Positions 5,881-55,334 of a DNA stretch of 64,000 nucleotides are shown here, piece after piece (positions within the stretch are counted from its first letter, which is position 1; every line of letters begins with the position of its first letter). Under the pieces are notes generated by a model that was not told the origin of the DNA, did no database searches, and worked only from the letters and a program-made list of their open reading frames with translations. The DNA comes from Marchantia polymorpha subsp. ruderalis. Taxonomy: Eukaryota > Streptophyta > Marchantiopsida > Marchantiales > Marchantiaceae. A program made the position numbers and the translations under genes. The stretch covers positions 7,708,001 through 7,772,000 of the forward strand of contig AP031357.1 in the NCBI GenBank assembly GCA_037833965.1. Direction: 5' to 3'.

Positions 5881-5900
5881 GTGAGCGCCCACGCGAACAT

Positions 5901-11552: not shown

Positions 11553-11595
11553 TCACCGAGCATTGCTGCTCAAGTATTCTGGTGTTGACGCACTG

Positions 11596-12556: not shown

Positions 12557-12565
12557 TACTTTATA
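12557..12565 (-). promoter_or_regulatory. TATA box of A 5' LTR
   Basis: Minus-strand TATAAAGTA in the 5' LTR, the likely core promoter for the genomic RNA of element A. Transcription would start about 30 nt further left. Confidence 0.7.
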
Positions 12566-12869: not shown

Positions 12870-12959
12870 GCCGACCTCGAGTTCGCCGACTCCGAGTTTG
12901 CCGACTTGAAGTTCGCCGACCTGGAGTTCGCCGACCTCAAGTTTGCCGACTCCGAGTTC
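12870..12959. repeat. 15-bp tandem repeat, 6 units (A 5' LTR)
   Basis: LTR duplicate of the block at 4768-4857. Confidence 0.88.
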
Positions 12960-13226
12960 TCCGAAGGCGTTGACCGCCGAAGAAGCACTTCCGCACCTTT
13001 GCCTATTTGTAACAGTCACTCCCGACACCCATAACTCACAGATCCTTGATCCGTTTCAAGAGTTCTTGGGCTCGTTGGAACGAGCGCGTCGAGCTCTTTC
13101 TAACGAGACCCTAACTGAGTCAAACCGTTACGAGTTGAAAGAGTTATGCCGGTTTTATCCTTCGCCAAAGGCACACTGTCGAAGGCTTGTTATCTGTTAT
13201 CGCCGAAGGCGCCCGCACGATGTTTC

Positions 13227-13511
13227 GCCGACTCCGAGTTCTCTGACCTCAAGTTTGCCGACTCCGAGTTTGCTGACTTGAAGTTCGCCGACCTGGAGTT
13301 CGCCGACCTCAAGTTTGCCGACTCCGAGTTTGCTGACTTGAAGTTCTTTGACCTCGAGTTCGCCGATCTCAAGTTTGCCGACTCCGAGTTTGCCGACTTG
13401 AAGTTCTTTGACCTCGAGTTCGCCGACCTCAAGTTTGCCAACTCCGAGTTCTCCGACCTCGAGTTCGCCGACCCCGAGTTCTCCGACTCCGAGTTTGCCG
13501 ACTTGAAGTTG
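13227..13511. repeat. 15-bp tandem repeat, 19 units (A 5' LTR)
   Basis: LTR duplicate of the block at 5125-5409, with isolated C/T differences between the copies. Confidence 0.88.
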
Positions 13512-13965
13512 ACCCGAAGACGTACGTCGCGGAAGGCGAACATCCAGGGCCGAAGGTGGATATTCTGCCGACGACGAACTCCTTCCGCCTATCCGTAGGC
13601 GTTCTCCTTCGCATCTTCCGACAGTCACAACTCCCTGAGTCCTCATCCGTTCCAGGTGTTCTTGGGCTCGTTAGAACGAGCGCGTTGAGCTCTTTCCAAC
13701 GAGATCCTAAGTAACTCAAGGCGTCAAGAATTGAGGAAGTTATGAGTGATCTACCGCCGAAGGTGCTCGAAGCGAGTCCTTCAGCGTGAACCGCCCGTTC
13801 CATTCCAAGCGTTCCACTGTGGCCTAAGCCCAAAACCCCTTGACTGTCCTCGATCCTCTTTTTACTCTGGCTTTGCGTACCGATTACTATTTACAACTGC
13901 TACCACGGTACTTACTAATCAAAAATGTTTTAGTTCCGGCGAAAAACAAAAAGTGGGTTACCACA

Positions 13966-31981: not shown

Positions 31982-34825
31982 TTGAATTCGGAGAAGAAAA
32001 GACTGCGCTCCAGTCTCATTCTCTCATTCTTGATTTTGCGATTTCCAGCTTCCAAGATTACGCGCAAGGGCGGAGAGACCTGCAGTGAGAGGAGAGAGTG
32101 CGGAGACGAGTTGCGCAAGGATCTTGACAGACCTTGGAGAGAATTGCGGGTAGCGAACTTGAGCGTGAGCGAAGAGAGAGTGAGCAGTCAGTGCTTGAGC
32201 GGCCGATGCGCAGTGGCGATTGTGAGAGAGCGAGCGAAAGGAAGAACGTTTGTGTGTGCAGGAAATGCAATGTCGAAGGTTCCCCAGCTGCGAGTGTCTC
32301 CCCTCAGGGTGCCGCAGATCGGTCTACGCGCATTTCAAGATGTGCTGCTGGGGCTGAAGCTCGATTTCCTTCTATGGGGGTGGAACTGGACATGTCCGGA
32401 GATGGTGCGCGAGTATCTGCAGGAGAGACACAAGCCCTCACGCGGATTCCGTCCACATCCAGAAAGATGGGACATTTGTAACTGGGCGCAGGTGTTGGGC
32501 AGGTGTGCCGGCGAGGAAGGGGATCTCCTCTTCGAGGCCGATAGCGTGAAGGTGTCCCAGGAGGAAGAAATCTCCTACAATGAGCTCTTCAAAGTTGCCA
32601 GGCATCCCAAGAACGGTTTCCGGACACGGGATTACAAAGATCGATTGCGGAGAAATGTCGCGACTGCATTGCTGCAGATATTGCAGCCGACCAAGACCGC
32701 TTACATGCATGGTTGGCAGGTAGAATTTGTGGAGCTAGTGTTGTCAGGAGCTCCAGTGCATTGGGCACGACTCCTGTGGAAGGTGACGCGCCAACATGCG
32801 CAAGAAGAGAAAGGAGGAACCCTCAATCATCTTTCGCCTTACTTGATTGTGTTTTATCGGGCGATGGGATGTTTGACAAATTCAGAGCGGACACGGTTTC
32901 CGCTGCTGACACAGAGCTATCCAGGTAGATACTCACGGGAGGCCGAAGTAGACACGGATCCGGACGAGGAACCTGCCAGTCCGCCTCCGGCTCCGGCCCC
33001 AGCAAGAGCAGTAGAAGAACGTCGAAGTGAGCGCATTCCGCGAAAGCGGAAGTGGGATGAGAGACCTGAGGACAGGCAGCCGGAAGTGCCAGCTGCGCCG
33101 ACTCGTGGTCGGCCCACCCACGAGCCTCACAGTCGACCAAAACAGAGGGCACGCAAAATGCCAACTAGTACTGAGGAGACCGGGCGTACTCCGCTCCGGC
33201 GGAATCCCACGCAGGAGGAGATAATCGCGCAGATTCTAGGGAAGTCGACAAATACCTCTGCGCAGAAGGCACCAATGCCTTCGGAAGGAGATGGACGGAC
33301 TGACAGTCGGCCGACTACGAGTCGGGCGACTGAAGGTCGACAAGCGGAAGGAAGGCCAACTGAGCGGCGCGTTGAACCGGACAGCAGGCCGGAAGCAGAA
33401 GAGAGTTTGGCTGACGAGCCAACAACCCTCAGAAGGTCGTCTTCGGCGGAAGACAGTTCTGGGAAAACGCCACCAGCAAGCAGGCCAAGTGGAGTGAAGA
33501 CGCGCAGGGTGTATCCGACTCCCAGTCGGACAACTGCTGGTCGGCCGACTGCGAGTCGGTCAACAGAGAGTCGGCCGGATTCGCCGACTGCGAGACGGAC
33601 AGGACCGGCGACCAGTGTGCGGACGCCTTCGGCGGACGCACCTTCAGCGAAGACACCTTCGGCGCAGATTGCGCCGGAAGGGCAGGCAGCAGAAGCGGGC
33701 GGTGCAAAGGTGACAAGAGTCACTGCGGCGTCGACCCCTTCGGAGACCGAAGATCGAGCCGGAACAGGGGCTCAAGCAGTGGGATCCCCCACTGCCCTGG
33801 ATATTTTAGCAGGCAGTGGAGCAGCAGTCGCAGCGGAAGCTGCTGCGCGCCACAGTTCCAGGGAGTCGCCAAGGGATTCGGTGGCGACTGAAATCCTCGA
33901 GACTGAGGATGAGACGAGCTCGGAAGAGCAGGAAGCGGACTCTGTGCAGAAAACGCCAACAGGGGTGTTGTGCGAGCAGATAGTCCCACTCCTGCGATAT
34001 CTGGATCGCAAGACATCCAAGTACTCGGGTACTGGAAAACCGCAGTCTTATGTGGAGACTGTCAAGCGCAGGACGAGGAGCAAGGTGGCCACTTGGGCCT
34101 CTAGGTGCCACGTATATCAGGAGAGTAATACTGCCCTCCGACAACACCTGGCGGTCACACAGAAGCTATACCAAGCCTTGCAGCAGCAGAGGGAGGATGC
34201 GGCGACAAAAAGCCAGGCGGATGCCGAGCTAATGCGGGCAAAGATCGAGTCGGAATTGCAGGAAGAGCGGAGACAAAACCGCATCCTAGTAGCAGAGCTT
34301 GCGCGCCAGACGCGCGCCTTAGAAGAAAGTCAAAGAATACGCAAGGAGGATGAGGAGTTGTTGCGCAACTTGCAATCCGAGTGCTCGGATTTGAGGGCGA
34401 AGCGTGCGGAAGCGGAAATGCAACTAGCAGAGGTGGAAGGCAGCTGCAGGGCGCGAGAAGAGTTGGCGACGCGGGTGACTCACTGCCTAAAAGGATACGC
34501 CCATTGGGAGGTGGCAGCTCAAGAGAGGATCACACTCAGGGAGTTCGAGCTTCGGGCGGCGGCATTGACGGAGGGTGACAATCGGAGTCGGCGGCGAGTA
34601 GCGAGGAAATTAGAAACCTTCTTGTCGGGTGCGCGCGACACTATGGCGCACTTAGAGTCGGAAGTCACTGCAGCCCTCCGACGCCTGGGGTTGCGCAGCT
34701 GGTCGGAAGACTGGCAAGGAAGAGACAGCGAGCGGAGCAGTCCGGCGCGCAGGAGGCGCAGCACCGGATCCGCCGAGTGCAGTAGTATAGTTTGGTTTCG
34801 CGCAGATGTTGAGAGTAGTAGATAG
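31982..34825 (+). CDS. Intact U3 ORF in M solo LTR, LTR-encoded protein
   Basis: The open frame is 947 codons. Alignment with the other copies suggests translation from Met 32270 (AMSKVPQLRV), giving about 851 aa, because the upstream part is not conserved. N-terminal domain (about 230 aa): LRVPQIGLRAFQDVLLGLKL, DFLLWGWNWTCPEMVREYL, ICNWAQVLGRCAG, RTRDYKDRLRRN, HLSPYLIVFYRAMGCL. Then comes a disordered basic/Pro/Ser middle, an acidic segment (ATEILETEDETSSEE) and a C-terminal coiled coil ending in the block YAHWEVAAQERITLREFELR and a basic tail (RRRRSTGSAEC). No enzyme motif, signal peptide or membrane segment is visible. The stop lies about 32 bp upstream of the TATA box, so the gene is wholly in U3. 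Function unknown; a nucleic-acid-binding or Gag-accessory role is only a guess. Confidence 0.85.
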   Translation: MNSEKKRLRSSLILSFLILRFPASKITRKGGETCSERRECGDELRKDLDRPWRELRVANLSVSEERVSSQCLSGRCAVAIVRERAKGRTFVCAGNAMSKVPQLRVSPLRVPQIGLRAFQDVLLGLKLDFLLWGWNWTCPEMVREYLQERHKPSRGFRPHPERWDICNWAQVLGRCAGEEGDLLFEADSVKVSQEEEISYNELFKVARHPKNGFRTRDYKDRLRRNVATALLQILQPTKTAYMHGWQVEFVELVLSGAPVHWARLLWKVTRQHAQEEKGGTLNHLSPYLIVFYRAMGCLTNSERTRFPLLTQSYPGRYSREAEVDTDPDEEPASPPPAPAPARAVEERRSERIPRKRKWDERPEDRQPEVPAAPTRGRPTHEPHSRPKQRARKMPTSTEETGRTPLRRNPTQEEIIAQILGKSTNTSAQKAPMPSEGDGRTDSRPTTSRATEGRQAEGRPTERRVEPDSRPEAEESLADEPTTLRRSSSAEDSSGKTPPASRPSGVKTRRVYPTPSRTTAGRPTASRSTESRPDSPTARRTGPATSVRTPSADAPSAKTPSAQIAPEGQAAEAGGAKVTRVTAASTPSETEDRAGTGAQAVGSPTALDILAGSGAAVAAEAAARHSSRESPRDSVATEILETEDETSSEEQEADSVQKTPTGVLCEQIVPLLRYLDRKTSKYSGTGKPQSYVETVKRRTRSKVATWASRCHVYQESNTALRQHLAVTQKLYQALQQQREDAATKSQADAELMRAKIESELQEERRQNRILVAELARQTRALEESQRIRKEDEELLRNLQSECSDLRAKRAEAEMQLAEVEGSCRAREELATRVTHCLKGYAHWEVAAQERITLREFELRAAALTEGDNRSRRRVARKLETFLSGARDTMAHLESEVTAALRRLGLRSWSEDWQGRDSERSSPARRRRSTGSAECSSIVWFRADVESSR

Positions 34826-39048: not shown

Positions 39049-39964
39049 TGTAATAACCCACCAAAGGCTAAAACTGCAGTATGGTGGTAAAAAGATCGAA
39101 CCCACAGGGACAGAGGCAACACACAGAGTAAAAGTGTCACATTTAACAGACTTTTGGTAGAGTTTGAATTCTAGGCGACTGTCACTCCCAGAAATACTGC
39201 AGTGCTCGACTCGGAGGCTCGACTCGGAGGAGGATCTCAACTCGGAGGATGCTCGGAGGATGCACGGTACAGCTTGGTCACTCAACACACACACACACAC
39301 ACCTGAAACTGGCAAAAAGCACAACTCGGAGGTCGGTCAGGACCTCCGCTTCGGATTTCAGGAGGAAAGTGTCTCGCAAGTTTACTCAGAGGTTCTGCAG
39401 GAAGTGCCTCCCACTCCGGCTTTTACTGCCCTTCCGCCAGGAACTAGCGGGGGTACCCGGACTGGACTTCTCACTTCGGAACGAAGCCTCTACGTACGCC
39501 GTGGACGTCACCCTCGACTATCACACAAAACGCAGGGAGTGCAGACCCGACTGAGAACTTACTGAAAACACGATCCAGTAACACACACACAACCTGAATT
39601 ACAAACCAAGGTTTACACGAAGTAATGAAACTTCACATTGGCATTCAGGGGAAACTTCCCGTAGGAGTACAATCAGGATATGTCACTCGAAGGAGTAAGG
39701 GGGAACTGTTCAAGTATCTAACTCGCAGCCGGCTCTGAGTATCAGAAATCACCCGCAGGTGCAGATCCGCACTACTCAAGTCTCTAACCGGGTACTAGCT
39801 CTGAACATTCAGCCGAAGGCCTTCAACTACAACATACGGTAACTTCGCTATGCTGCAGCTTCTCTACGTGGTGCCAGGACCAAAATGCACAAACACGCCA
39901 AGAAAGTGAGTTCCTGATCTGCACTTCCGAAACTGGAAGAGTCCCAAGGCAAAACGCCTTGATC

Positions 39965-39973
39965 TACTTTATA
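39965..39973 (-). promoter_or_regulatory. TATA box of M 3' LTR
   Basis: Minus-strand TATAAAGTA just downstream of the U3 ORF stop, with the inverted repeat at 39944-39961. Confidence 0.7.
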
Positions 39974-40006
39974 CTCTCAAAAGATCCTAACTAGCACTAC
40001 GCTATC

Positions 40007-42574
40007 CTATCTACCACTCGCAGCATCTGCGCGAAACCAAACTACTCTACTGCACTCAGCAGATCCGGTGCTGCGCCTCCTGCGCGCCGGACTGCTCCGC
40101 GTACTATCTCTACCTTGCCAGTCTTCCGACCGGCTGCGTAACCCCAGGCGTCGGAGCGCTGCAGTGACTTCCGACTGCAAGTGCGCCATAGTGTCGCGCG
40201 CACCCGACAAGAAAGTTTCTAATTTTCTTGCCACTCGCCGCCGACTCCGACTGTCACCTTCCGTCAAGGCCGCCGCCCGAAGCTCGAACTCCCGGAGTGT
40301 AACCCTCTCTTGAGCTGCCACCTCCCAATGGGTGTATCCGTTTAGACAACGAGTCACCCGTGCCGCCAACTCTCCTCGTGCCCTGCAGCTGCTCTCCACC
40401 TCTGCCAGCTGCATTTCTAAATCCGCACGTTGAGCCCTCAAATCCGAGCACTCGGTTTGCAAGTTGCACAACAACTCCTCATCCTCCTTGCGGGCTCTTT
40501 GACTTTCCTCTAAGGCGCGCGTCTGGCGCGCAAGCTCGGCTGCTAGGACTTTGTTCTGTCTTCGCTCCTCCTGCAGTTCCGACTCGATCTTTGCCCGTAT
40601 TAGTTCGGCCTCCGCCTGACTCTTCGTCGCCGCATCCTCCTTCTGCTGCTGCAAGGCTTGGTATAGCTTCTGGGTGACCGCCAGGTGTTGTCGGAGGGCG
40701 GTGTTCCTTTCCACATATACTTGGCAACTAGAGGCCCACTTTGCCACCTTGATCCTCGTCCTTCGCCTGATAGTCTCCACATAAGACTGCGGTTTTAAGG
40801 CACTTCCGTATTTGGATGTCTTGCGATCCAGATATCGCAGGAGTGGAACTATCTGTTCGCACAGCACACTTGTTGGCGTTTTCTGCACCGAATCCGCTTC
40901 CTGCTCTTCCGAGCTCGTATCATCCTCAGTCTCGAGGATTTCAGTCGCCACCGAATCCCTTGGCGACTCCCAGGAACTGTGGCGCGCAGCAGCTTCTGCT
41001 GCGACTGCTGCTCCACTGCCTGCTAAAATATCCAGGGCAGTGGGAGATCCCACTGCTTGAGCCCCTGTTCCGGCTCGATCTTCGGTTTGTGAAGGGGTCG
41101 ACGCCGCAGTGACTTTTGTCACTCTTGCACCGCCCGCTTCTGCTGCCTGTCCTTCCGGCGCCATCTGCGCGGAAGGTGTCCTTGCTGAAGGTGCGTCCGC
41201 CGAAGGCGTCCGCACACTGGTCGTTGGTCCCATCCGTCTCGCAGTCGGCGAATCCGGCTGACTCTCTGTTGTCCGACTCGCAGTCGGCCGACCAGCAGTT
41301 GTCCGACTGGGAGTCGGATACACCCTGCGCGTCTTGACTCCACTTGGCCTGCTTGTTGGGGGCGTTCTTCCAGAAGTGCCTTCCGCCGAAGACGACCCTT
41401 TGAGGATTGTTGGCTCGTCAGCCAAACTCTCTTCTGCTTCCGGCCTGCTGTCCGGTTCAACGCGCCGTTCAGTTGGCCTTCCTTCCGCTTGTCGACCTTC
41501 AGTCATCCGACTCGCAGTCGGCCGGCTGTCAGTCCGTCCATCTCCTCCCGAAGGCCGTGGTGCCTTCTGTGCAGAGGTTTCTGCCGTCTTCCCTAGGACC
41601 TGAGCAATTATCTCTTCCTGTGTGAGATTCCGCCGGGTCGGAGTTCGCCTGGTCTCCTCAGTAACAGTTGGCATTCTGCGTGCCCTCTGTTTTGGTCGAC
41701 TATGAGGCTCGGGGGTGGGCCGACCACGAGTCGGCGCAGCTGGTACTTCCGGCTGCCTGTCCTCAGGTCTCTCATCCCACTTCCGCTTGCGCGGAATGCG
41801 CTCACTTCGACGTTCTTCTGCTGCTCTGGCCGGAGCCGGAGGCGTACTGGCAGGTTCTTCGTCCGGATCCGTGTCTACTTCGGCCTCCCTCGAATATCTA
41901 CCTGGATAAGTCCGGGTCAGCTGCGGAAACCGAGTCTTCTCAGCATTCGTCAAACATCCCATCGCCCGGTAAAACACGATTAAGTAAGGCGATAGATGAT
42001 TGAGCGTTCCTCCCCTCTCTTCTTGCGCATGTTGGCGCGTCACCTTCCACAGGAGCCGTGCCCAATGCACCGGAGCTCCTGACAACACTAGCTCCACGAA
42101 CTCTACCTGCCAACCATGCATGTAAGCGGTCTTGGTCGGCTGCAATATCTGCAGCAATGCTGTCGCGACATTTCTCCGCAATCGATCCTTGTAATCCCGA
42201 GTCCGGAAACCGTTCTTGGGATGTCTAGCCACCTTGAAGAGCTCATTGTAAGAGACTTCTTCCTCCTGGGACACTTTCACGCTGTCGGCCTCGAAGAGGA
42301 GATCCCCCTCCTCGCCGGCACACCTGCCCAACACCTGCGCCCAATTGCAAATTTCCCATCTCTCTGGGTGTGGGCGAAATCCGCGAGAAGGCTTGTGTCT
42401 CTCTTGCAGATACTCGCGCACCATCTCCGGACACGTCCAATTCCACCCCCAGAGGAGAAAATCGAGCTTCAGCCTCGTCAGCACATCTTGAAATGCGCGT
42501 AGACCGATCTGCGGCACCCTGAGTGGAGACACTCGCAGTTGGGGAACCTTCGACATTGCGTTGCCTGCACACAC
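40007..42574 (-). CDS. Intact U3 ORF in M 3' LTR, LTR-encoded protein
   Basis: The frame has 855 codons. The conserved start is probably Met at 42556 (AMSKVPQLRV), giving about 849 aa. Residues about 7-235 form a compact, Trp-rich conserved domain (LDFLLWGWNWTCPEMVREYL, CNWAQVLGRCAGEEGDLLF, GFRTRDYKDRLRR, GAPVHWARLLWKVTRQHA, NHLSPYLIVFYRAMGCL). Residues about 240-540 are low complexity with SRPTASRTTES-type repeats. From about 560 come IVPLLRYLDRK, a long Glu/Gln/Arg coiled coil, then YTHWEVAAQERVTLREFEL and a basic tail. It lies on the gag-pol strand, in U3, with its stop 34 bp before the TATA box. It could be made from the 3' end of the genomic RNA, a spliced RNA or a U3-internal promoter. 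Family unknown. Confidence 0.87.
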   Translation of the reverse strand: MCAGNAMSKVPQLRVSPLRVPQIGLRAFQDVLTRLKLDFLLWGWNWTCPEMVREYLQERHKPSRGFRPHPERWEICNWAQVLGRCAGEEGDLLFEADSVKVSQEEEVSYNELFKVARHPKNGFRTRDYKDRLRRNVATALLQILQPTKTAYMHGWQVEFVELVLSGAPVHWARLLWKVTRQHAQEERGGTLNHLSPYLIVFYRAMGCLTNAEKTRFPQLTRTYPGRYSREAEVDTDPDEEPASTPPAPARAAEERRSERIPRKRKWDERPEDRQPEVPAAPTRGRPTPEPHSRPKQRARRMPTVTEETRRTPTRRNLTQEEIIAQVLGKTAETSAQKAPRPSGGDGRTDSRPTASRMTEGRQAEGRPTERRVEPDSRPEAEESLADEPTILKGSSSAEGTSGRTPPTSRPSGVKTRRVYPTPSRTTAGRPTASRTTESQPDSPTARRMGPTTSVRTPSADAPSARTPSAQMAPEGQAAEAGGARVTKVTAASTPSQTEDRAGTGAQAVGSPTALDILAGSGAAVAAEAAARHSSWESPRDSVATEILETEDDTSSEEQEADSVQKTPTSVLCEQIVPLLRYLDRKTSKYGSALKPQSYVETIRRRTRIKVAKWASSCQVYVERNTALRQHLAVTQKLYQALQQQKEDAATKSQAEAELIRAKIESELQEERRQNKVLAAELARQTRALEESQRARKEDEELLCNLQTECSDLRAQRADLEMQLAEVESSCRARGELAARVTRCLNGYTHWEVAAQERVTLREFELRAAALTEGDSRSRRRVARKLETFLSGARDTMAHLQSEVTAALRRLGLRSRSEDWQGRDSTRSSPARRRRSTGSAECSRVVWFRADAASGR

Positions 42575-43913
42575 AAACGTTCTCCCTTTCGCTCACTCTC
42601 TCACAATCGCCACTGCGCGTCGGCCACTCAAGCACTGACTGCTCACTCTCTCTGCGCTCGTTCAAGATCGCTACTCCCAATTCTTTCAAGGTCCGCCAAG
42701 ATCCTTGTGCAACTCGTCTCCGCACTCTCTACTCTCACTGCAGGTCGCTCCGCCCTTGCGCGTAATCTTGGAACTGGAAATTGCAAAGTCAAGAATGAGA
42801 GAATGAGACTGGAGCGCAGTCTTTTCTTCTCCGATTTCAAGAACGTCCAACGTTCTTACTGGTTGCAACGTACGCAACCGGCTATATGGCTTAACGGTTC
42901 GCCCTTTGCATGCGCGAATTCACGTCTCCGCATTGCGCGCATTCGCATGCTTAAACGTTGAATTCTCCCGCCGCCGCCACCTTCCGGACTCGAGTCCGCT
43001 GCAGGGTATACGTCGGCCCTGTTGTCTTTTCCTAACCCGCCCTTCTCCGGAGGCGTGTCGCCGCTGGTGCGTTCATTATCCGTCGGCGCCTTGCTGGAGG
43101 CGCACATCCAGCCGGAGCGAATTACGCCGGCGCACAGTCGTACCGCCTATTTTGTCCTTTATGCCTCGTCCGTTGCTGCCAGCGCATATCCGTCAGCGCA
43201 ACTCATGCCAGCGCATCCGGCCGTCAGCGCCACGTCGGAGGCGTACATCCGACCGGCGCTTTCCTTCCATGAACAGCCGCCAAGGGCGCTTCCGACTCTG
43301 AGTTGGTTTCCTCCTGTGAGCGCGTGATTCCGCCGAAGGCGCATCGCCGAGGGCGTACGGGAATCCTTTCCGGCTGTGAACCCTAGCGCGAACGGCGCAT
43401 GTCCGGCTATGAGTTTTCCGACGCTCATAACTTCTCCATTCCTGATCCATCTCCGGCGCTCTTGGACTCGTTAGAACGAGCCTCCCGAGCTCTTTCTAAT
43501 GCAACTTCAACCAACTGGATCTACCGTGTATCCCGATTGTTATGAAGGTTTTCCCTTTCCGCGCTAGCGGCGCTTCGCCGAAGGCGCACTCATGGTCGGA
43601 TGCCTTTAGAGGTCCGGGCCCTTCTCCTGACGTCTTTAGCAAAACCTCCTCATGAGGTGTCTGCGCCGGAAGCGTAGCTTCCTTATACGCTAGAGGCGCG
43701 TGAGTAGAGACACCTCAAAAAGGAGCTTTTGCCGAAGGCGCCCAAGACGTTGGCGTTGGTACATCCGACTACGTGATTCTTTGTGCCCTCGTGACGATCT
43801 CATCAATCCACTCTATTTAGCGTACCCTTTTCTAGCTACAAACACTGCTTTGGTACTAGTTTTCTAAAATTGTTTAAATTCTGCAAAAAAAACAAAAAGT
43901 GTGTTACCACATG

Positions 43914-43928
43914 CCCCCCTCCTCAATT
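43914..43928 (-). other. Polypurine tract of element M
   Basis: The minus strand reads CAATTGAGGAGGGGGG directly before the 3' LTR U3 boundary. Confidence 0.8.
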
Positions 43929-43948
43929 GTGAGCGCCCACGCGAACAT

Positions 43949-46789
43949 TTACACGTGGTATTTCTTCAGACGCCATCCGTTCACGCGGGTGCCTAACCAT
44001 TCTCCCGTCAGTTCTGCGAGTTGGATGGATCCATTTGGGAAAACTTCTATCACCTTGTAAGGTCCCATCCACCTCAAGTGGAGCTTGCCTGGAAATCTAG
44101 CATGTCTGCTATCGTATAGCAGAGCCAAGTCGCCCTTCTCCAGCAGTACTGGTTTGAGCCTTCGATCGTACTTCTCCTTCCGCCTGAGTTGTAATTGCTT
44201 TGTCCGATCTTGGGCCTCTTGACGTCTTTCCTCCAGTGCCATTACCTCTTGCAGTCGATATGCCTGACTTTCTTCCGCGTCCAGCCTTCTCTGATCTAAG
44301 GTCCTCTTGGTAGGTATCTCGAATTCGATGGGTAAGATCGGATGCTGCCCATAAACTAGGAAGTAAGGTGTTTGCCTGGTGGTGACTTTTTCTGCCGTTC
44401 TATATGCCCATAAGGCGGCCGGTAGCTTGGTGTCCCAGTCATGAGCATGGTTTACAGTCACTTTGAGGAGTATCTTACAGAGTAATCCATTGGACTTCTC
44501 TGTCAGACCATTTGCCTTGGGGTTGTATGGAGTAGTCTTCCGATGCTTAATCTGGAAGTGCCGCGTCAAACTTTCTATCACCTGATTCAGAAAGTGCGTT
44601 CCTCTGTCACTGACTATTTCTAGGGGGCACCCGTAGCGTGTGATGATGGATTCGAATAGGAACCGTGCTACTGCGGCTGCGTCGTCGTGCCTTGTGGCTT
44701 CTGCCTCCACCATCTTGGTCGCATAGTCTGTTGCTACCAATATGTAGCGCCTGCGCGTGCCTTTAGTGACAGGTTGTATTGGTCCCACGAAGTCGATCCC
44801 CCATTTTTCAAATGGTGCCAATGGCATGATTGGTGTAAGAGGCCATCTCGTGGTCGGAGTCGGCCTTCCCGTCCTCTGGCAGCTGTCGCATTTGCGAACG
44901 TAGTCGTGTACATCTTTGAACATCGTCGGCCACCAGTATCCTGCATTCACAATTTTGGTCACTGTATTTCTGGTGGCGTAGTGACCACCAGCGTCTTCTG
45001 TGTGCATGGCTTTGACAACTCGCGGTACTTCAGACTCCTCTAGACATCTGCACAGCCTGTCGTCTGCCATTTTCTTGAACAAGACCCCCTGTTGAAGCTG
45101 GTAAGGTCCCGCTTTATGAACGAAGACTGTGCGCTGCTCCGCATCCAATCCTTCCGGACATTGGAGTGTGAGCAGGAACCTGTATAAGTCCGCGTACCTG
45201 GACTCATGGCTGGCGGACAACTGAAAAAGTTGTTCGTCGGGAAAATCATCCACTACTTCCTCCTCTATGGGTTCGGTCCATAGTCGGGAGAGGTAGTCCG
45301 CGTTCTCATGGTGAACGCCTTTCCGTGTCTGTACAGTATAGGTGAATTCCTGTAGCAGTAGCACCCACCTGGCAATTCGTCCGGACAGATCCGCCTTCTT
45401 CACCAGGTGCTGTAAGGCGTAATGATCTACATGAAACACGAACTCATAGCAGATCAAATAATGTCGGAACTTCTTGCAGGAGTACACCATTCCCAACGCC
45501 TCCCTCTCAGTTGTCGTGTACTTCTTCTCTGCTGTTGACAACTGACGACTCGCGAAGTAAATCGGGTAGTCTTTTTTGTTGTCGTCCTTCTGACTGAGAA
45601 CCACCCCGATTGCAAACGCCGACGTGTCTACATAGACATGGAAAGGTCTGTTCCAATCCGGACTTCTCAGAACCGGAGCAGTCGTCAGTTTGGCTTTGAG
45701 CGTTTCAAACGCCAGCTGTTGCTCTTTGCCCCACACATAGGGTTCCTCCTTCTTAAGCAGCTTCGTCAGGTTGGCTGCCAAGATGGCGTACATATTTATG
45801 AACCTTCTGTAATAACCTACATGGCCAAGGAAGGCCCTCAACTCACGCAGATTCGTTGGCGGCTGCAGTTCGAGAATAATCTTCACCTTCTCTACATCCA
45901 CTGCAATGCCATCGGACGAAACTCGGTGCCCCAGCAGGATTCCGCTGGTCATGAAGAAAAAACATTTCTCAGGGTGTAAGGACAAGCTGCTTTCCCTACA
46001 CCTGTCGAACGTTTGCCGAAGATGGTTAAGGTGCTCCGACCTCTTACCGAAGACACAAAAGTCGTCGATGAAAATTTCTAGGAACTTCCTCAGGTGCTCT
46101 TGGAAGATGTTTGTCATCATCCGCTGGAACGTCGCTGGCGCGTTGCACAGACCGAACGGCATCTTGTGATAAGCATAGGTTCCCCAGTCGGTTGTGAAGG
46201 TTGTTTTGTCCTTGTCCTGTTCCCTGATGGACACCTGGTTGTAGCCGGAAAATCCGTCTAGGAAACTGTAGCATTCATGCCCTGCTACATGGTCCAGAAT
46301 AGAGTCCGTGAAAGGAAGAGGGTGATGGTCCTTCCTCGTTGCTGCGTTCAGCTTTCGGAAGTCCTGGCACACCCGGATCTTACCCGTCAGTTTCTTGGGC
46401 ACGATCACGATAGGCGACACCCACTCGCTACTGAGTACCGGGTAGATGATTCCTGCGCTCAGGTACTTATCGATTTCGTCCTTCACCAATAATGAATATT
46501 TTGGGTTGAGCCTGTATTGGCGTTGGCGAACCGGAACTGCCTCGTCCAACAAGTCGATCCTGTGCTCTCCATACCTTGCAGGTATGCCTTTCATGTCTTC
46601 AATCTTCCATGCGAAGACATCCTCATACTAGCGAAGAAACGCCTGTACCCTGTTCAACTCTTCTCCTTGTACCTGGCTTGACACCTTCAAGCCTTTACCT
46701 GGACTGAGCTGCAGTTCGCAGCAATCACTCGGGTCAACAATCCCCTCTGTGTGACTGATCTCGCTTCTGCCCAGTCCGGCTGCTAGTTG
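43949..46789 (-). pseudogene. pol: Element M pol: RT, RNase H, integrase; one nonsense codon
   Basis: Follows the gag-protease UAG in the same frame. A single TAG at 46628-46630 (CAG in A) interrupts the short linker before RT. The remaining 881 codons (43949-46594) are open. RT has PFGLCNAPATFQRMM and the catalytic FIDDF (about residues 175-179 of that stretch). RNase H is FHVYVDTSAFAIGVVLSQ to HHENADYLSR. Integrase has HYATRNTV/CDSCQR zinc ligands and D, D, E in WGIDFVGP, SDRGTHFL and GLTEKSNG. The C-terminal GPYKVIEV module ends LKKYHV. No chromodomain is present. With one late stop this is the least damaged pol in the window. Confidence 0.92.
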
Positions 46790-49618
46790 CTATTCCTCAT
46801 CCGGATACACCTCGTCTCCTTCCTCCTCAATGGAGCAGCAAGTGACGTAGCCCACAAAGTCCTCCGACGTTTCGGTCTTTGAAGTGCATGATGAGCTGGT
46901 CTCCCTTCCAGTTGTGTAACCGGAGGTGGTGGAAGGTGTTTCGCCCTCATGGGGTACCTTGGTCCACGGTACGGTAATGACAGTCGGAGGGTCCGCAGGG
47001 CTACGGAACTGTAATCTCTTCCTACTCCAGTCACACCTTGCTTTGGCATCGTATAGCCACGGTCTGCCAAGCAGCACATCATAACCTTTCTTCATCAGAG
47101 GTTGCAGTATTATGTAGGACAGTTGAAAGTCCACTCCTCCAATGTTGGTTCTCACATTGCTCAACATTCCTAGTGGCATTCTGCGTGTTTGATCGGCCAG
47201 TCGCAATACTCGGGATGTAGGCTCGAAGGTCTGGAACCCCAAGGAGTTCGCTGTCTCCTCGGTCATGATATTCACGCCCGAGCCGGAGTCCACTGGTACC
47301 TTCTGTATGACGCAGCCTCCGATCTCTACTTCGATCTCTGGAGGTCCCAGGTCTCCTCCTTCCACTCTGTACACAGCCGGAAGTTTCTCTTTTCGGGGTT
47401 TGCGTGGTCGGCGCAACGAAAGCATCAGCATCCTTCTGTACGTCTTATTGTCTTCCAACAACTGGTGGAAGGAAATATTTGCCCTCTGGCTCCCTATGTC
47501 TTCCACTATGTCGTAGGGAGTGTTGGAAGTCACAGCCGGAAGTTTTCCTGTACTCGCGGTCGGAAGTGGTGTAGGGGGCCTAACCGCCTTCCGGACGTCG
47601 GATGTCATTCCGGCGCCCAGTGCTTCCTTGATGAGGTGACTCACCTCATCTTTGATGTCCGGAAGGTAATCTCGAGTCCGGAACTCTTCCGAATACCTGT
47701 TCGCCTTTTCTGAGTTCTGCTCCGGCTGGGTGTTTCTCATAGCCGGAGGTGTACTTGGCGTTCTCCTTTGGCCTTCTCTAACTTCTTTAGACTTCCTCCT
47801 CTCTTCCCTACGCTCGAGGCGGCGAGTGTCCTCATGGCCTTCTCCTCTCCTCTTCGAACTTCGGGTTTCTACCCGACCGCACATTACTTCTTCCTCTGGC
47901 CATACTTCGTCTCCTTCAGCTGGGTCCAGACTCAGTTCTACCTGGTTGACTTGCACTTCTTCCTTGCCAGGTGTTGATACGAAACGCACGGCTGGCCTAG
48001 GGAGTTGGGGCTGGTCACATTCGGCTGCTGTATGTCCAGACTTCTTGCAATTGCTGCACAATGGTGCATACCCCATTGGCTTCCTCGGGTGGGGACAACT
48101 TGGCGCGTAATGTCCCATGTCTCCGCAGTTGTAGCAACCATCGAATTGTGGTCGAGGTCGGTTGTGATTGCCTGGAGGTGCCATGCGTCTGGGTGGGAGT
48201 GTACCCGCCATTTCCCTCGGAACAAAGCGCGGTATATGCACCGGTGGGTTCGGAGTTGTAGCTGGAGCTGTCTGTACTGAGTAGGCGGTGTCCTCAACCT
48301 GCTCAGCATAATACATAGGTGGCTCAGCATAATACATGGGGTTCTCCCACTGTGGTGCCCATTCGACCGCATTCACTGGGTAAGATGGCCGCGCGGACAT
48401 GCACTCCGTGTTGGCATGTCCCACCTGTCCGCACGTAGTACACCAGAGATTCGCTCGTTGTCTCGCAGGTGATTTACGTCGGTCTTGGCCTCCCACTACA
48501 TGAACTTTCAGGTCCGCAAAATTCTTCACCAGGTTGTCTACCTTGGCTGCGATGTCCCCTTGAGTCTTCACTGGGATTCCCTTACCTCGATCCTTCTTCT
48601 TGATCGCACTGCGTTTCTTCTTCCGTCTTTCTTCTTCTGAAGATGACGAGTCCTCTTCCTCTTCCGAGGAAGAACTTGATTCGGAGGAGCTTGATTCTTC
48701 TGTCGAGGAAGGCGAGTTCCTTCTCTTCCGACGTCCGCCTTGCGACTTCTTCTTCGTCGACCGTCGGTCGCGTCTTCGAGTGTCAAGGGTTGACGTCTCA
48801 AAGGTCTCCGCGGAAGCTATCACATCTTGGATTGTGTCAGTCTTGCCTCTCCTACAGAAGGTCTCCATTTCTCTTGAGAGCCCTGTCACATACCAATCCA
48901 CTGCCTGTTGTACCGAATACGGTTCTCCCGGGCCTGTCTTCGGAATTCGATCTAGGAGGTCTTGGAATCTCTCAGTGTAGTCTCGAAGATTCTCCTTCCG
49001 CTCGCGTCGAAGATTTCGAAGCCGGGTCAGAACTCGACTGTCATATCCGAGTTCGCGGAACCGCCTCAGAAACTTTTCCTTGAGCTGTGCCCAGGTCCGG
49101 ATGCCAGTGGGGTCGGTGCTCTCATGGTTGTACCAGCTACGCGCTCGTCTGCGTAGCAGGCTAGGAAAGATTCGTAATCTGTCTTCATCACTGGTCTCAC
49201 GATTGGCGATGGAGACAGACTCGAAGAGCTTTATGTATGAATCTGCATCATCGTCGTCGCCCGTTCCCGTGTATCTTGGATACGAATGTTTGGTGGTAGG
49301 TTGGGAAAACGCCTGGCGGAGATTGGCTTGATGTTCTGCCATCGGTGATCCTGTCGACGGACTGATCCTAGGTTGGCCAAACTCAGGAAGAGTTCCTGTC
49401 GGAGGGATGTCCAATAGAACTGTTAGCTCAATGCTCTCGGTAGGTGAACTGGAACGCCTTTGTCTTCCAGTAGTCGGTGATGGCGATCTTTCTGCAGAGT
49501 CCTCACCGGGAGTCTTCTTTTTAGTTCGCCGTTTTGTTTCCACGGCTTTTTCTGAATCTCGACGGAGTTTCCGTGTGGCTCTCGCACTCAGGTTTCCCAC
49601 ACTATCGCTCGTCGACAT
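46790..49618 (-). CDS. gag: Element M Gag-protease polyprotein, 942 aa
   Basis: Intact ORF starting MSTSDSVGNLSARATRK 44 nt after the PBS. The Gag domain is at about residues 125-275 (SYIKLFESVSIANRETS, FRRFRELGYDSRV-like helices), followed by a Ser/Glu-rich tract. CCHC knuckles lie near residues 391, 494 and 520 (CTTCGQVGHANTEC, CYNCGDMGHYAPSC, CSNCKKSGHTAAEC). The aspartic protease has DSGSG near residue 775 and GYDVLLGRPWLYDAKARCDW. It differs from A by scattered substitutions and a small duplication (MYYAEPPMYYAE). The stop UAG is followed by CAA CUA, with pol in frame, so readthrough is the likely route to Gag-Pol. Confidence 0.94.
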   Translation of the reverse strand: MSTSDSVGNLSARATRKLRRDSEKAVETKRRTKKKTPGEDSAERSPSPTTGRQRRSSSPTESIELTVLLDIPPTGTLPEFGQPRISPSTGSPMAEHQANLRQAFSQPTTKHSYPRYTGTGDDDDADSYIKLFESVSIANRETSDEDRLRIFPSLLRRRARSWYNHESTDPTGIRTWAQLKEKFLRRFRELGYDSRVLTRLRNLRRERKENLRDYTERFQDLLDRIPKTGPGEPYSVQQAVDWYVTGLSREMETFCRRGKTDTIQDVIASAETFETSTLDTRRRDRRSTKKKSQGGRRKRRNSPSSTEESSSSESSSSSEEEEDSSSSEEERRKKKRSAIKKKDRGKGIPVKTQGDIAAKVDNLVKNFADLKVHVVGGQDRRKSPARQRANLWCTTCGQVGHANTECMSARPSYPVNAVEWAPQWENPMYYAEPPMYYAEQVEDTAYSVQTAPATTPNPPVHIPRFVPREMAGTLPPRRMAPPGNHNRPRPQFDGCYNCGDMGHYAPSCPHPRKPMGYAPLCSNCKKSGHTAAECDQPQLPRPAVRFVSTPGKEEVQVNQVELSLDPAEGDEVWPEEEVMCGRVETRSSKRRGEGHEDTRRLERREERRKSKEVREGQRRTPSTPPAMRNTQPEQNSEKANRYSEEFRTRDYLPDIKDEVSHLIKEALGAGMTSDVRKAVRPPTPLPTASTGKLPAVTSNTPYDIVEDIGSQRANISFHQLLEDNKTYRRMLMLSLRRPRKPRKEKLPAVYRVEGGDLGPPEIEVEIGGCVIQKVPVDSGSGVNIMTEETANSLGFQTFEPTSRVLRLADQTRRMPLGMLSNVRTNIGGVDFQLSYIILQPLMKKGYDVLLGRPWLYDAKARCDWSRKRLQFRSPADPPTVITVPWTKVPHEGETPSTTSGYTTGRETSSSCTSKTETSEDFVGYVTCCSIEEEGDEVYPDEE

Positions 49619-49661: not shown

Positions 49662-49679
49662 TCCCCGGCAGCGGCGCCA
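49662..49679 (-). other. Primer binding site, tRNA-Asp (M)
   Basis: Minus-strand TGGCGCCGCTGCCGGGGA, 22 nt from the 5' LTR edge at 49702. Confidence 0.88.
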
Positions 49680-50615
49680 AAAAGAAGTTGTCGGCTCCTT
49701 ATGTAATAACCCACCAAAGGCTAAAACTGCAGTATGGTGGTAAAAAGATCGAACCCACAGGGACAGAGGCAACACACAGAGTAAAAGTGTCACATTTAAC
49801 AGACTTTTGGTAGAGTTTGAATTCTAGGCGACTGTCACTCCCAGAAATACTGCAGTGCTCGACTCGGAGGCTCGACTCGGAGGAGGATCTCAACTCGGAG
49901 GATGCTCGGAGGATGCACGGTACAGCTTGGTCACTCAACACACACACACACACCTGAAACTGGCAAAAAGCACAACTCGGAGGTCGGTCAGGACCTCCGC
50001 TTCGGATTTCAGGAGGAAAGTGTCTCGCAAGTTTACTCAGAGGTTCTGCAGGAAGTGCCTCCCACTCCGGCTTTTACTGCCCTTCCGCCAGGAACTAGCG
50101 GGGGTACCCGGACTGGACTTCTCACTTCGGAACGAAGCCTCTACGTACGCCGTGGACGTCACCCTCGACTATCACACAAAACGCAGGGAGTGCAGACCCG
50201 ACTGAGAACTTACTGAAAACACGATCCAGTAACACACACACAACCTGAATTACAAACCAAGGTTTACACGAAGTAATGAAACTTCACATTGGCATTCAGG
50301 GGAAACTTCCCGTAGGAGTACAATCAGGATATGTCACTCGAAGGAGTAAGGGGGAACTGTTCAAGTATCTAACTCGCAGCCGGCTCTGAGTATCAGAAAT
50401 CACCCGCAGGTGCAGATCCGCACTACTCAAGTCTCTAACCGGGTACTAGCTCTGAACATTCAGCCGAAGGCCTTCAACTACAACATACGGTAACTTCGCT
50501 ATGCTGCAGCTTCTCTACGTGGTGCCAGGACCAAAATGCACAAACACGCCAAGAAAGTGAGTTCCTGATCTGCACTTCCGAAACTGGAAGAGTCCCAAGG
50601 CAAAACGCCTTGATC

Positions 50616-50624
50616 TACTTTATA
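50616..50624 (-). promoter_or_regulatory. TATA box of M 5' LTR (genomic RNA promoter)
   Basis: Minus-strand TATAAAGTA with the inverted repeat CAAGGCGTTTTGCCTTGG (50595-50612) immediately downstream. Confidence 0.72.
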
Positions 50625-50657
50625 CTCTCAAAAGATCCTAACTAGCACTACGCTATC

Positions 50658-53225
50658 CTATCTACCACTCGCAGCATCTGCGCGAAACCAAACTACTCTA
50701 CTGCACTCAGCAGATCCGGTGCTGCGCCTCCTGCGCGCCGGACTGCTCCGCGTACTATCTCTACCTTGCCAGTCTTCCGACCGGCTGCGTAACCCCAGGC
50801 GTCGGAGCGCTGCAGTGACTTCCGACTGCAAGTGCGCCATAGTGTCGCGCGCACCCGACAAGAAAGTTTCTAATTTTCTTGCCACTCGCCGCCGACTCCG
50901 ACTGTCACCTTCCGTCAAGGCCGCCGCCCGAAGCTCGAACTCCCGGAGTGTAACCCTCTCTTGAGCTGCCACCTCCCAATGGGTGTATCCGTTTAGACAA
51001 CGAGTCACCCGTGCCGCCAACTCTCCTCGTGCCCTGCAGCTGCTCTCCACCTCTGCCAGCTGCATTTCTAAATCCGCACGTTGAGCCCTCAAATCCGAGC
51101 ACTCGGTTTGCAAGTTGCACAACAACTCCTCATCCTCCTTGCGGGCTCTTTGACTTTCCTCTAAGGCGCGCGTCTGGCGCGCAAGCTCGGCTGCTAGGAC
51201 TTTGTTCTGTCTCCGCTCCTCCTGCAGTTCCGACTCGATCTTTGCCCGTATTAGTTCGGCCTCCGCCTGACTCTTCGTCGCCGCATCCTCCTTCTGCTGC
51301 TGCAAGGCTTGGTATAGCTTCTGGGTGACCGCCAGGTGTTGTCGGAGGGCGGTGTTCCTTTCCACATATACTTGGCAACTAGAGGCCCACTTTGCCACCT
51401 TGATCCTCGTCCTTCGCCTGATAGTCTCCACATAAGACTGCGGTTTTAAGGCACTTCCGTATTTGGATGTCTTGCGATCCAGATATCGCAGGAGTGGAAC
51501 TATCTGTTCGCACAGCACCCCTGTTGGCGTTTTCTGCACCGAATCCGCTTCCTGCTCTTCCGAGCTCGTATCATCCTCAGTCTCGAGGATTTCAGTCGCC
51601 ACCGAATCCCTTGGCGACTCCCTGGAACTGTGGCGCGCAGCAGCTTCTGCTGCGACTGCTGCTCCACTGCCTGCTAAAATATCCAGGGCAGTGGGAGATC
51701 CCACTGCTTGAGCCCCTGTTCCGGCTCGATCTTCGGTTTGTGAAGGGGTCGACGCCGCAGTGACTTTTGTCACTCTTGCACCGCCCGCTTCTGCTGCCTG
51801 TCCTTCCGGCGCCATCTGCGCGGAAGGTGTCCTTGCTGAAGGTGCGTCCGCCGAAGGCGTCCGCACACTGGTCGTTGGTCCCATCCGTCTCGCAGTCGGC
51901 GAATCCGGCTGACTCTCTGTTGTCCGACTCGCAGTCGGCCGACCAGCAGTTGTCCGACTGGGAGTCGGATACACCCTGCGCGTCTTGACTCCACTTGGCC
52001 TGCTTGTTGGGGGCGTTCTTCCAGAAGTGCCTTCCGCCGAAGACGACCCTTTGAGGATTGTTGGCTCGTCAGCCAAACTCTCTTCTGCTTCCGGCCTGCT
52101 GTCCGGTTCAACGCGCCGTTCAGTTGGCCTTCCTTCCGCTTGTCGACCTTCAGTCATCCGACTCGCAGTCGGCCGGCTGTCAGTCCGTCCATCTCCTCCC
52201 GAAGGCCGTGGTGCCTTCTGTGCAGAGGTTTCTGCCGTCTTCCCTAGGACCTGAGCAATTATCTCTTCCTGTGTGAGATTCCGCCGGGTCGGAGTTCGCC
52301 TGGTCTCCTCAGTAACAGTTGGCATTCTGCGTGCCCTCTGTTTTGGTCGACTATGAGGCTCGGGGGTGGGCCGACCACGAGTCGGCGCAGCTGGTACTTC
52401 CGGCTGCCTGTCCTCAGGTCTCTCATCCCACTTCCGCTTGCGCGGAATGCGCTCACTTCGACGTTCTTCTGCTGCTCTGGCCGGAGCCGGAGGCGTACTG
52501 GCAGGTTCCTCGTCCGGATCCGTGTCTACTTCGGCCTCCCTCGAATATCTACCTGGATAAGTCCGGGTCAGCTGCGGAAACCGAGTCTTCTCAGCATTCG
52601 TCAAACATCCCATCGCCCGGTAAAACACGATTAAGTAAGGCGATAGATGATTGAGCGTTCCTCCCCTCTCTTCTTGCGCATGTTGGCGCGTCACCTTCCA
52701 CAGGAGCCGTGCCCAATGCACCGGAGCTCCTGACAACACTAGCTCCACGAACTCTACCTGCCAACCATGCATGTAAGCGGTCTTGGTCGGCTGCAATATC
52801 TGCAGCAATGCTGTCGCGACATTTCTCCGCAATCGATCCTTGTAATCCCGAGTCCGGAAACCGTTCTTGGGATGTCTAGCCACCTTGAAGAGCTCATTGT
52901 AAGAGACTTCTTCCTCCTGGGACACTTTCACGCTGTCGGCCTCGAAGAGGAGATCCCCCTCCTCGCCGGCACACCTGCCCAACACCTGCGCCCAATTGCA
53001 AATTTCCCATCTCTCTGGGTGTGGGCGAAATCCGCGAGAAGGCTTGTGTCTCTCTTGCAGATACTCGCGCACCATCTCCGGACACGTCCAATTCCACCCC
53101 CAGAGGAGAAAATCGAGCTTCAGCCTCGTCAGCACATCTTGAAATGCGCGTAGACCGATCTGCGGCACCCTGAGTGGAGACACTCGCAGTTGGGGAACCT
53201 TCGACATTGCGTTGCCTGCACACAC
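50658..53225 (-). CDS. Intact U3 ORF in M 5' LTR, LTR-encoded protein
   Basis: Same 855 codons as 40007-42574 with two amino-acid differences noted (Arg for Trp in HSSRESP, Gly for Ser in TPTGVLCEQ). The Met at 53207 is the conserved start. In this LTR the ORF lies upstream of the LTR promoter, so it would need its own promoter or read-through from flanking DNA. No TATA box upstream of the ORF can be named with confidence. Confidence 0.86.
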   Translation of the reverse strand: MCAGNAMSKVPQLRVSPLRVPQIGLRAFQDVLTRLKLDFLLWGWNWTCPEMVREYLQERHKPSRGFRPHPERWEICNWAQVLGRCAGEEGDLLFEADSVKVSQEEEVSYNELFKVARHPKNGFRTRDYKDRLRRNVATALLQILQPTKTAYMHGWQVEFVELVLSGAPVHWARLLWKVTRQHAQEERGGTLNHLSPYLIVFYRAMGCLTNAEKTRFPQLTRTYPGRYSREAEVDTDPDEEPASTPPAPARAAEERRSERIPRKRKWDERPEDRQPEVPAAPTRGRPTPEPHSRPKQRARRMPTVTEETRRTPTRRNLTQEEIIAQVLGKTAETSAQKAPRPSGGDGRTDSRPTASRMTEGRQAEGRPTERRVEPDSRPEAEESLADEPTILKGSSSAEGTSGRTPPTSRPSGVKTRRVYPTPSRTTAGRPTASRTTESQPDSPTARRMGPTTSVRTPSADAPSARTPSAQMAPEGQAAEAGGARVTKVTAASTPSQTEDRAGTGAQAVGSPTALDILAGSGAAVAAEAAARHSSRESPRDSVATEILETEDDTSSEEQEADSVQKTPTGVLCEQIVPLLRYLDRKTSKYGSALKPQSYVETIRRRTRIKVAKWASSCQVYVERNTALRQHLAVTQKLYQALQQQKEDAATKSQAEAELIRAKIESELQEERRQNKVLAAELARQTRALEESQRARKEDEELLCNLQTECSDLRAQRADLEMQLAEVESSCRARGELAARVTRCLNGYTHWEVAAQERVTLREFELRAAALTEGDSRSRRRVARKLETFLSGARDTMAHLQSEVTAALRRLGLRSRSEDWQGRDSTRSSPARRRRSTGSAECSRVVWFRADAASGR

Positions 53226-54562
53226 AAACGTTCTCCCTTTCGCTCACTCTCTCACAATCGCCACTGCGCGTCGGCCACTCAAGCACTGACTGCTCACTCT
53301 CTCTGCGCTCGTTCAAGATCGCTACTCCCAATTCTTTCAAGGTCCGCCAAGATCCTTGTGCAACTCGTCTCCGCACTCTCTACTCTCACTGCAGGTCGCT
53401 CCGCCCTTGCGCGTAATCTTGGAACTGGAAATTGCAAAGTCAAGAATGAGAGAATGAGACTGGAGCGCAGTCTTTTCTTCTCCGATTTCAAGAACGTCCA
53501 ACGTTCTTACTGGTTGCAACGTACGCAGCCGGCTATATGGCTTAACGGTTCGCCCTTTGCATGCGCGAATTCACGTCTCCGCATTGCGCGCATTCGCATG
53601 CTTAAACGTTGAATTCTCCCGCCGCCGCCACCTTCCGGACTCGAGTCCGCTGCAGGGTATACGTCGGCCCTGTTGTCTTTTCCTAACCCGCCCTTCTCCG
53701 GAGGCGTGTCGCCGCTGGTGCGTTCATTATCCGTCGGCGCCTTGCTGGAGGCGCACATCCAGCCGGAGCGAATTACGCCGGCGCACAGTCGTACCGCCTA
53801 TTTTGTCCTTTATGCCTCGTCCGTTGCTGCCAGCGCATATCCGTCAGCGCAACTCATGCCAGCGCATCCGGCCGTCAGCGCCACGTCGGAGGCGTACATC
53901 CGACCGGCGCTTTCCTTCCATGAACAGCCGCCAAGGGCGCTTCCGACTCTGAGTTGGTTTCCTCCTGTGAGCGCGTGATTCCGCCGAAGGCGCATCGCCG
54001 AGGGCGTACGGGAATCCTTTCCGGCTGTGAACCCTAGCGCGAACGGCGCATGTCCGGCTATGAGTTTTCCGACGCTCATAACTTCTCCATTCCTGATCCA
54101 TCTCCGGCGCTCTTGGACTCGTTAGAACGAGCGTCCCGAGCTCTTTCTAATGCAACTTCAACCAACTGGATCTACCGTGTATCTCGATTGTTATGAAGGT
54201 TTTCCCTTTCCGCGCTAGCGGCGCTTCGCCGAAGGCGCACTCATGGTCGGATGCCTTTAGAGGTCCGGGCCCTTCTCCTGACGTCTTTAGCAAAACCTCC
54301 TCCTGAGATGTCTGCGCCGGAAGCGTAGCTTCCTTATACGCTAGAGGCGCGTGAGTAGAGACACCTCAAAAAGGAGCTTTTGCCGAAGGCGCCGAAGACG
54401 TTGGCGTTGGTACATCCGACTACGTGATTCTTTGTGCCCTCGTGACGATCTCATCAATCCACTCTATTTAGCGTACCCTTTTCTAGCTACAAACACTGCT
54501 TTGGTACTAGTTTTCTAAAATTGTTTAAATTCTGCAAAAAAAACAAAAAGTGTGTTACCACA

Positions 54563-54567
54563 GCATC
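54563..54567. repeat. Target site duplication of element M (right)
   Basis: GCATC, matching 39044-39048. Confidence 0.9.
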
Positions 54568-55334
54568 ACCCTGTGCAGGATGCTCGCCCAGTGAATTGGA
54601 GTTCCCTCGATGACGCACTCCACAAAAGAGACCTGCCACAATGTGATGTAGCAGGCGCGGTGCGGCTGCAGTAATTGCATCAGCGCCGCGGACAGAGTCC
54701 GGCGAAATCGATCTTTGTAATCACGGGTCCTGTACCCATTCTTGGTAGACCTCCCGGTCTTGAACAGCTCCACAAATTGCGCCTCTTCTTGCTTGGTCAC
54801 CTTGATGCTCTCGCTGTCGAAAAGGAGATGCCCTGGCATGCCAGCACATCTTCCCAACGCCTGCGCCCAATCTTGGACTGTCCACAGGTCCACATGCGGA
54901 CGCAATCCGCGCGAGGGTGGTCCCTGTGGCTCTAGCCACTCGCGCACCATATTCGCGCAGAAGTAATTCCATCCCCATAGCAAGAAATCGAGCTTTCTTG
55001 CTATTAAGCGCTCTTCGAAAGCGCGCAGCCCGTTCTGCGGCAGGCGAAGTGGCACCATCCGCAATCTGCTCGGTCTCGTCATTGCGTTCCTGGGGTTCGC
55101 TCGCCCGCTCATTCTACTTCCGCACTGTCCGCGTTTCTTTCTCTCTCGGCAAACTCTAATCGCTCTCAATTCCAAATCACGCGCACTCACTTCTCCCTCA
55201 ATCAACAAGAAATCTCCTGTGTGACGACGTCGGGAATGGTCCGCAGCCAGCAGATGGATGCGCGCAGCGCGCACAAGAGATTGGAATCGCGAATTCAAGA
55301 ATGGGACGCTCTCCGCCGCCCGGTCGAAGGTCAT
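54563..55334 (-). pseudogene. U3 ORF of minus P solo LTR, N-terminal part
   Basis: Open from Met 55334 (MTFDRAAESVPFLNSRF) with the conserved start Met at 55082 (AMTRPSRLRMVPL). It encodes LDFLLWGWNYFCANMVREWL, WAQALGRCAGMPGHLLF and RTRDYKDRFRR, up to the point where M inserted (HWASILHRVM). It continues in frame at 39043. Confidence 0.88.

Follow-up and report, generated by a model that had tools for sequence, protein, structure and literature searches.

Genes inside the long terminal repeats (LTRs) of retroelements are known from a few animal retroviruses. In mouse mammary tumor virus (MMTV), the sag gene lies in the 3' LTR and makes this LTR unusually long. Its product, the membrane protein Sag, has about 320 residues. 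Plant retrotransposon LTRs, in contrast, are usually regarded as non-coding control DNA. Here, we analyzed a window of 64,000 nucleotides from the liverwort Marchantia polymorpha subsp. ruderalis (contig AP031357.1, positions 7,708,001 to 7,772,000), in which the LTRs of a Ty3/gypsy element, termed M, hold a large accessory gene, an open reading frame (ORF) of 849 codons in U3. The likeness to the animal U3 genes sag and nef that the initial annotation had drawn holds for the layout. MMTV, however, is an animal retrovirus, and the liverwort protein has no membrane span: its highest hydropathy over 19 residues is 1.22, and a Sag-type membrane protein was rejected on this ground. Targeted searches of the listings of a mainly open-access literature found neither an LTR-borne gene nor this layout described for plants.

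Env-like sense additional ORFs (aORFs) of plant elements such as Athila and Bagy2 form a third gene in gag-pol sense between pol and the 3' LTR, according to sections of PMC7264820. The liverwort gene is likewise a third gene in gag-pol sense downstream of pol. It differs in that the aORFs in those sections are internal, before the 3' LTR, whereas it follows the polypurine tract (PPT) and is present in both LTRs. Two features of plant env-like aORFs are thus missing, the location between pol and the PPT, since the PPT at 43912-43924 precedes the ORF, and a transmembrane domain. Tat/OTA elements also belong to Ty3/gypsy and combine long LTRs with tandem arrays and additional ORFs; these ORFs comprise plant mobile domain, Transposase_28 and Athila ORF-1 proteins in the main text of a survey that makes no mention of Marchantia there (PMC6317226). 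For 43 members of the liverwort protein family, none of the domains PF10536, PF04195, PF03078 and PF20167 was among the 25 of 37 Pfam families listed at E values up to 10; the PF20167 profile gave zero matches in the genome, though it was also silent in every control. Retrosat2, again a Ty3/gypsy element with LTRs of more than 3 kb and an orphan ORF, carries its ORF0 upstream of the gag-pol ORF and outside the LTR, as described in part of PMC3485330.

Element M is a complete insertion of 15.5 kb (39049-54562, minus strand). It has the hallmarks of Ty3/gypsy elements, namely a pair of LTRs with TG..CA ends, a target site duplication, a primer binding site (PBS), a PPT (sequence GAGGAGGGGGGCA) and the order reverse transcriptase-RNase H-integrase. 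The LTRs of 4863 and 4861 bp are 99.73% identical, and the 5-bp target site duplication GCATC is present on both sides. The parts of the element are as follows.

39049..43911 (-), 3' LTR of M, TG..CA; left copy of the duplication GCATC at 39044-39048
39968..39973 (-), TATAAA of the 3' LTR, 33 bp beyond the ORF stop; twin at 50619-50624
40007..42556 (-), U3 ORF in the 3' LTR, 849 codons from ATG
42557..43911 (-), U3 upstream of the ORF, bearing GCCTTCGGC palindromes
43912..43924 (-), PPT, immediately after pol and upstream of the U3 ORF
43949..46594 (-), pol ORF, open; reverse transcriptase, RNase H, integrase
46790..49618 (-), gag-protease ORF, open
49662..49679 (-), PBS TGGCGCCGCTGCCGGGGA, 22 nt past the 5' LTR
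49702..54562 (-), 5' LTR of M; right copy of GCATC at 54563-54567
50658..53207 (-), the same ORF in the 5' LTR, 849 codons from ATG

The initial annotation had reported an ORF of 849-855 codons in the U3 of these 4.86-kb LTRs, duplicated with the LTR and stopping about 35 bp before the TATA box. Coordinates, LTR ends and the second copy in the 5' LTR were verified, and the distance from the stop codon to TATAAA was measured as 33 bp. The frame at 40007-42574 (minus strand) comprises 855 codons when counted from a GTG, the first ATG being located at 42556. The copy in the 5' LTR (50658-53225, minus strand) is of equal length and differs at 5 nt. The ORF begins 1355 bp after the LTR start and lies wholly within U3, in sense to gag-pol. 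At this base composition, the probability of 849 open codons arising by chance is 3.5e-15, and none of the five remaining frames of the M LTR stays open for more than 164 codons.

Further copies of the gene occur in the window, in a truncated M-type LTR and in a second family, P. M was inserted within the U3 ORF of a P element and split that ORF at 39048/54563.

25341..27692 (+), P-family U3 ORF from the conserved ATG, part of the frame 25083-27692; frameshift near the end, C part resuming in a different frame at 27629-28192
30909-35653, truncated M-type LTR, 92% identical to the M LTR
32270..34825 (+), ORF of the truncated M-type LTR, 851 codons
36663..39048 (-), remainder of the P-family U3 ORF split by M
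54563..55082 (-), N part of the same P-family U3 ORF, cut off by the M insertion

The homologous P ORF proposed earlier is indeed in the same place, but no uninterrupted P copy was read in the window, owing to the frameshift in one and the M insertion in the other. As had been noted, the two families agree at both ends of the protein, with 59% identity over 230 codons in the N domain (P25) and 43-53% in the C domain versus 28-35% in the linker between them. Between M and P, synonymous divergence is at or near saturation and the ratios of nonsynonymous to synonymous divergence (dN/dS) indicate constraint only. For M5 versus the truncated M copy, dN/dS was 0.067 in the N domain (bootstrap 0.03-0.12), 0.266 in the C domain (0.17-0.40) and 0.51 in the linker; for P25 versus P54 the N domain gave 0.065 (0.02-0.15). 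Selection on the protein, as the initial annotation had predicted, thus appears in values far below 1 in both end domains. Pairwise comparison of M5 with 18 fetched intact M copies and of these with one another (19 copies, 171 non-independent pairs) yielded pN/pS ratios of 0.14, 0.37 and 0.27 for N domain, linker and C domain, respectively. As a control, M was compared with A, a sister element without the gene: dN/dS was 0.205 for gag-protease and 0.03 for pol, placing constraint on the U3 gene near that on gag and below that on pol. Judged by these codon comparisons, the N and C domains are under purifying selection, and the LTR-borne gene is real and selected.

Genome-wide counts refer to the 241-Mb, nine-contig assembly containing the window. 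A search with the M protein gave 13,420 first-look candidates, the best 53 of which were scored; these represent the closest copies and not the family average. Among them, 49 had no stop over 855 codons and four had one stop; the breaks at common positions that the initial annotation had named as a refutation are absent from these closely related LTRs. Thirteen pairs are spaced 10,649-10,662 bp apart, which is the spacing of the two LTR ORF copies of one element. The ORF starts 1305-1362 bp inside an M-type LTR at all 20 loci fetched from the 53. The LTR match reaches the LTR end at 18 of these (it ends early in L044 and L051), the ORF is of full length everywhere but in L048 and L050, where it stops early, and a PPT before the LTR or a PBS leader after it is present at 15. 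For the P family, 150 out of 7,999 candidates were scored with its N domain, of which 143 lacked a stop in this domain and 49 had frames of at least 1000 codons; the LTR start (TGTGGTAC...) was found in the upstream flank of the ORF at 17 of 20 P loci.

In older families the gene is decayed. Only nine of 82 scored P0008-type copies lack a stop in the main stretch, the other 73 being broken, and all but a few of the 81 scored P0016-type copies are broken as well. The broken P0008-type copies count against the initial interpretation, as does the movement of A without the gene, but they are as expected for dead elements. A gene that decays in old copies is unlike a kept host gene. Seven distinct P0008-type loci were examined, L062-L064 being duplicates of L061; an M-like LTR start or R region adjoins the ORF at five of them and both do so in L055 and L060, while L058 and L061 are rearranged. 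The U3 position of the gene is common to at least three families, M, P and P0008-type, and within this one genome, protein selection maintains an LTR gene in several families. Identical scores were seen for P0008-type loci that recur at about 2.4-3.3 Mb of the smallest contig (G000:C1), which suggests segmental repeats, possibly on a sex chromosome.

The encoded protein consists of an N domain of about 230 residues, a basic PRKRKW motif, a linker and a C domain with a predicted coiled coil. The linker is net basic, with P, S, T, R, A, E and G making up 80% of its residues, and is encoded by repeat-rich, GC-rich DNA; both P and the truncated M LTR show 15-bp repeats there. A basic motif of the form KR[KR][WF] occurs in 39 of the 53 protein records that keep VDTD or VDID (window frames included). 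In P0008 the predicted coiled coil is a single long helix (residues 448-526), with block confidence (pLDDT) values of 87-98 from residue 451; the N domain was modelled as helical at low confidence. No convincing Pfam or fold match was obtained, and profile comparison of the N domain with gag revealed no similarity (hhalign probability 0.2%). All named database relatives stem from Marchantia polymorpha, the best match among them being Mp_8g15400, with 95% identity over 58%. These are currently listed as hypothetical proteins, which matters for annotation, as does persistence of the gene in solo LTRs. One gene model, MARPO_0006s0274 (P0015), fuses a 140-codon part of the U3 ORF with gag via an unrelated basic stretch.

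In LTR elements, plus-strand synthesis from the PPT copies downstream sequence into U3, which is then duplicated with each insertion. In M, the PPT directly follows pol and lies upstream of the gene, so that the gene is copied into U3 and duplicated at every insertion. Genomic RNA would hold only the 3' copy of the ORF, because the copy in the 5' LTR sits upstream of its own TATA box. Sag of MMTV is expressed by splicing, as stated in a section of PMC3026287. An acceptor-like TGCAG is located 8 nt upstream of the ATG in all 20 fetched M copies; the matching site in 20 P copies reads CCAGG in 12, CCAGA in one and CCAAG in seven.

The sister element A lacks the gene.

3534..13965 (-), element A, target site duplication ATGGA; LTRs of about 2330 bp without ORF
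3534-5863 and 11635-13965, LTRs of A
4494..5863 (-), U3 of A, without ORF; tandem array of a 15-bp unit at 5120-5402, second U3 at 12596-13965

A and M are 93% identical in DNA across gag-pol and R-U5, and in two BLAST runs their homology restarted within 3 bases of the M ORF stop codon. It is simpler to assume that A lost the gene, because M, P and the older family all possess it. The LTRs of A are 99.7% alike and its pol is one frame interrupted by two internal stops; A may have moved using the proteins of other elements, or pol may have broken after the move. Among the 40 of 3,592 A-type U3 candidates scored, only the two of the window are about 8.1 kb apart. The claim that U3 DNA next to the gene cannot be aligned between families is mostly true, except that a 100-bp module of the A U3 recurs in the U3 of P (100 bp) and M (61 bp).

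The short imperfect palindrome GCCTTCGGC is present at least once in all 12 U3 regions scanned, with three copies each in M and truncated M U3, one in A, and one and two in the two P U3s. It occurs one to seven times within the first 1500 bp of the seven P0008-type loci. Dinucleotide shuffles gave an expectation of 0.00-0.05 per non-coding U3 versus one to seven observed. Linker DNA holds one copy in M and three in P, whereas the regions for the N and C domains contain none in either family, nor do gag-pol of M, A and P and 7 kb of flanking host DNA. A has retained the palindrome though it is gene-less. The 16-mer GATGCGCCTTCGGCGG occurs 4,030 times genome-wide and its reversal not once, the 12-mer GCGCCTTCGGCG 11,786 times versus 646 for the reversed control; these counts probably mirror mainly LTR copy number. 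The complement of GCCTTCGGC reads C-GAA-G, and a C-GAA-G triloop is very stable in DNA.

For this combination of gene and repeated motif the anti-silencing VANC proteins of Arabidopsis VANDAL elements offer a parallel: short motifs that recur within their own elements are bound by these proteins, which also have variable, repeat-bearing parts, according to passages of PMC5735166. The liverwort protein, too, is element-encoded and combines conserved domains with a variable repeat-bearing part, and a motif is repeated in the non-coding DNA of its own elements; here this is GCCTTCGGC, a candidate site chosen post hoc and present once in A U3 and P3 U3. VANDALs, however, are DNA transposons, and the liverwort likeness concerns the layout.

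Based on the VANC parallel (motifs in own elements, repeat-bearing variable part), which is not proof, we favor a DNA-acting regulator. The explanation that we find best, with a chance somewhat short of even, is that the third gene in U3 with its constrained end domains encodes a nuclear coiled-coil product that acts in trans on LTR DNA and sustains transcription. It would be expressed from the 3' copy, either by splicing to the acceptor-like TGCAG before the ATG or from a U3 promoter, enter the nucleus through the basic PRKRKW motif and recognize the LTR palindrome or family-specific repeats. The product would serve as a regulator or anti-silencing factor and would not be envelope-like; gene-less elements such as A would use it in trans. 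While the gene itself rests on sequence, we infer its job, that is its expression, DNA binding and regulation. An extended version, which we consider doubtful, makes each LTR a self-contained regulatory unit that holds the gene for a sequence-specific anti-silencing activator plus its binding sites, so that thousands of LTRs would sustain the whole clan in trans, gene-less A included; solo LTRs would count as activator sources as well. A product acting on LTR DNA would correspond, in plants, to the regulators of retroviruses and, among retrotransposons, to VANC, and its role is testable in Marchantia, a model liverwort.

It is unlikely, in our view, that the gene is an env-like or movement-like accessory gene of the plant aORF kind, with a role in particles or cell-to-cell passage, that came to lie in U3 merely through the position of the PPT. 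The M and P genes are indeed both located after pol and behind the PPT, but the protein has no membrane span and carries a basic motif resembling a nuclear localization signal, and the U3 location in M, P and the older family indicates an old, stable position. Just as improbable is a structural role in trans in support of gag or reverse transcription, for example as an RNA chaperone, packaging factor or integration cofactor. A coiled coil, a net basic linker and conservation of the gene alongside intact gag-pol in M would suit such a helper; on the other hand, the N domain bears no resemblance to gag, nothing ties the protein to particles, and A transposed without the gene. Capture of a host gene, or a passenger repeat kept open by chance or composition, is a very improbable source of the ORF despite linker DNA rich in repeats and GC, given the open-frame probability, an N-domain dN/dS of 0.07 and decay in older families.

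Several observations also weigh against the regulator acting on LTR DNA. A transposed without the gene, which is therefore not needed in cis. The basic motif is missing from 14 of the 53 VDTD/VDID records, the N domain is poorly modelled (mean pLDDT 52), and fold searches yielded no function for the protein. The acceptor-like site is constant in M, yet reads CCAAG in seven of 20 P copies. As for the palindrome, R-U5 of M and of A each contain one GCCTTCGGC (that of P none), A U3 and P3 U3 have a single copy, and the P3 count was reached by 4.5% of shuffles. The motif was picked after inspection of the sequence, so the shuffle figures are not a blind test, and the repeats encoding the linker may have given rise to it as a by-product.

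Elsewhere in the window, the P-family region at 15454-30908 is scrambled and consists of gag-protease, an LTR without a preceding PPT, a pol tail with PPT and another LTR. The right flank of the window contains a 71-bp unit in two copies at 98% (62623-62767).
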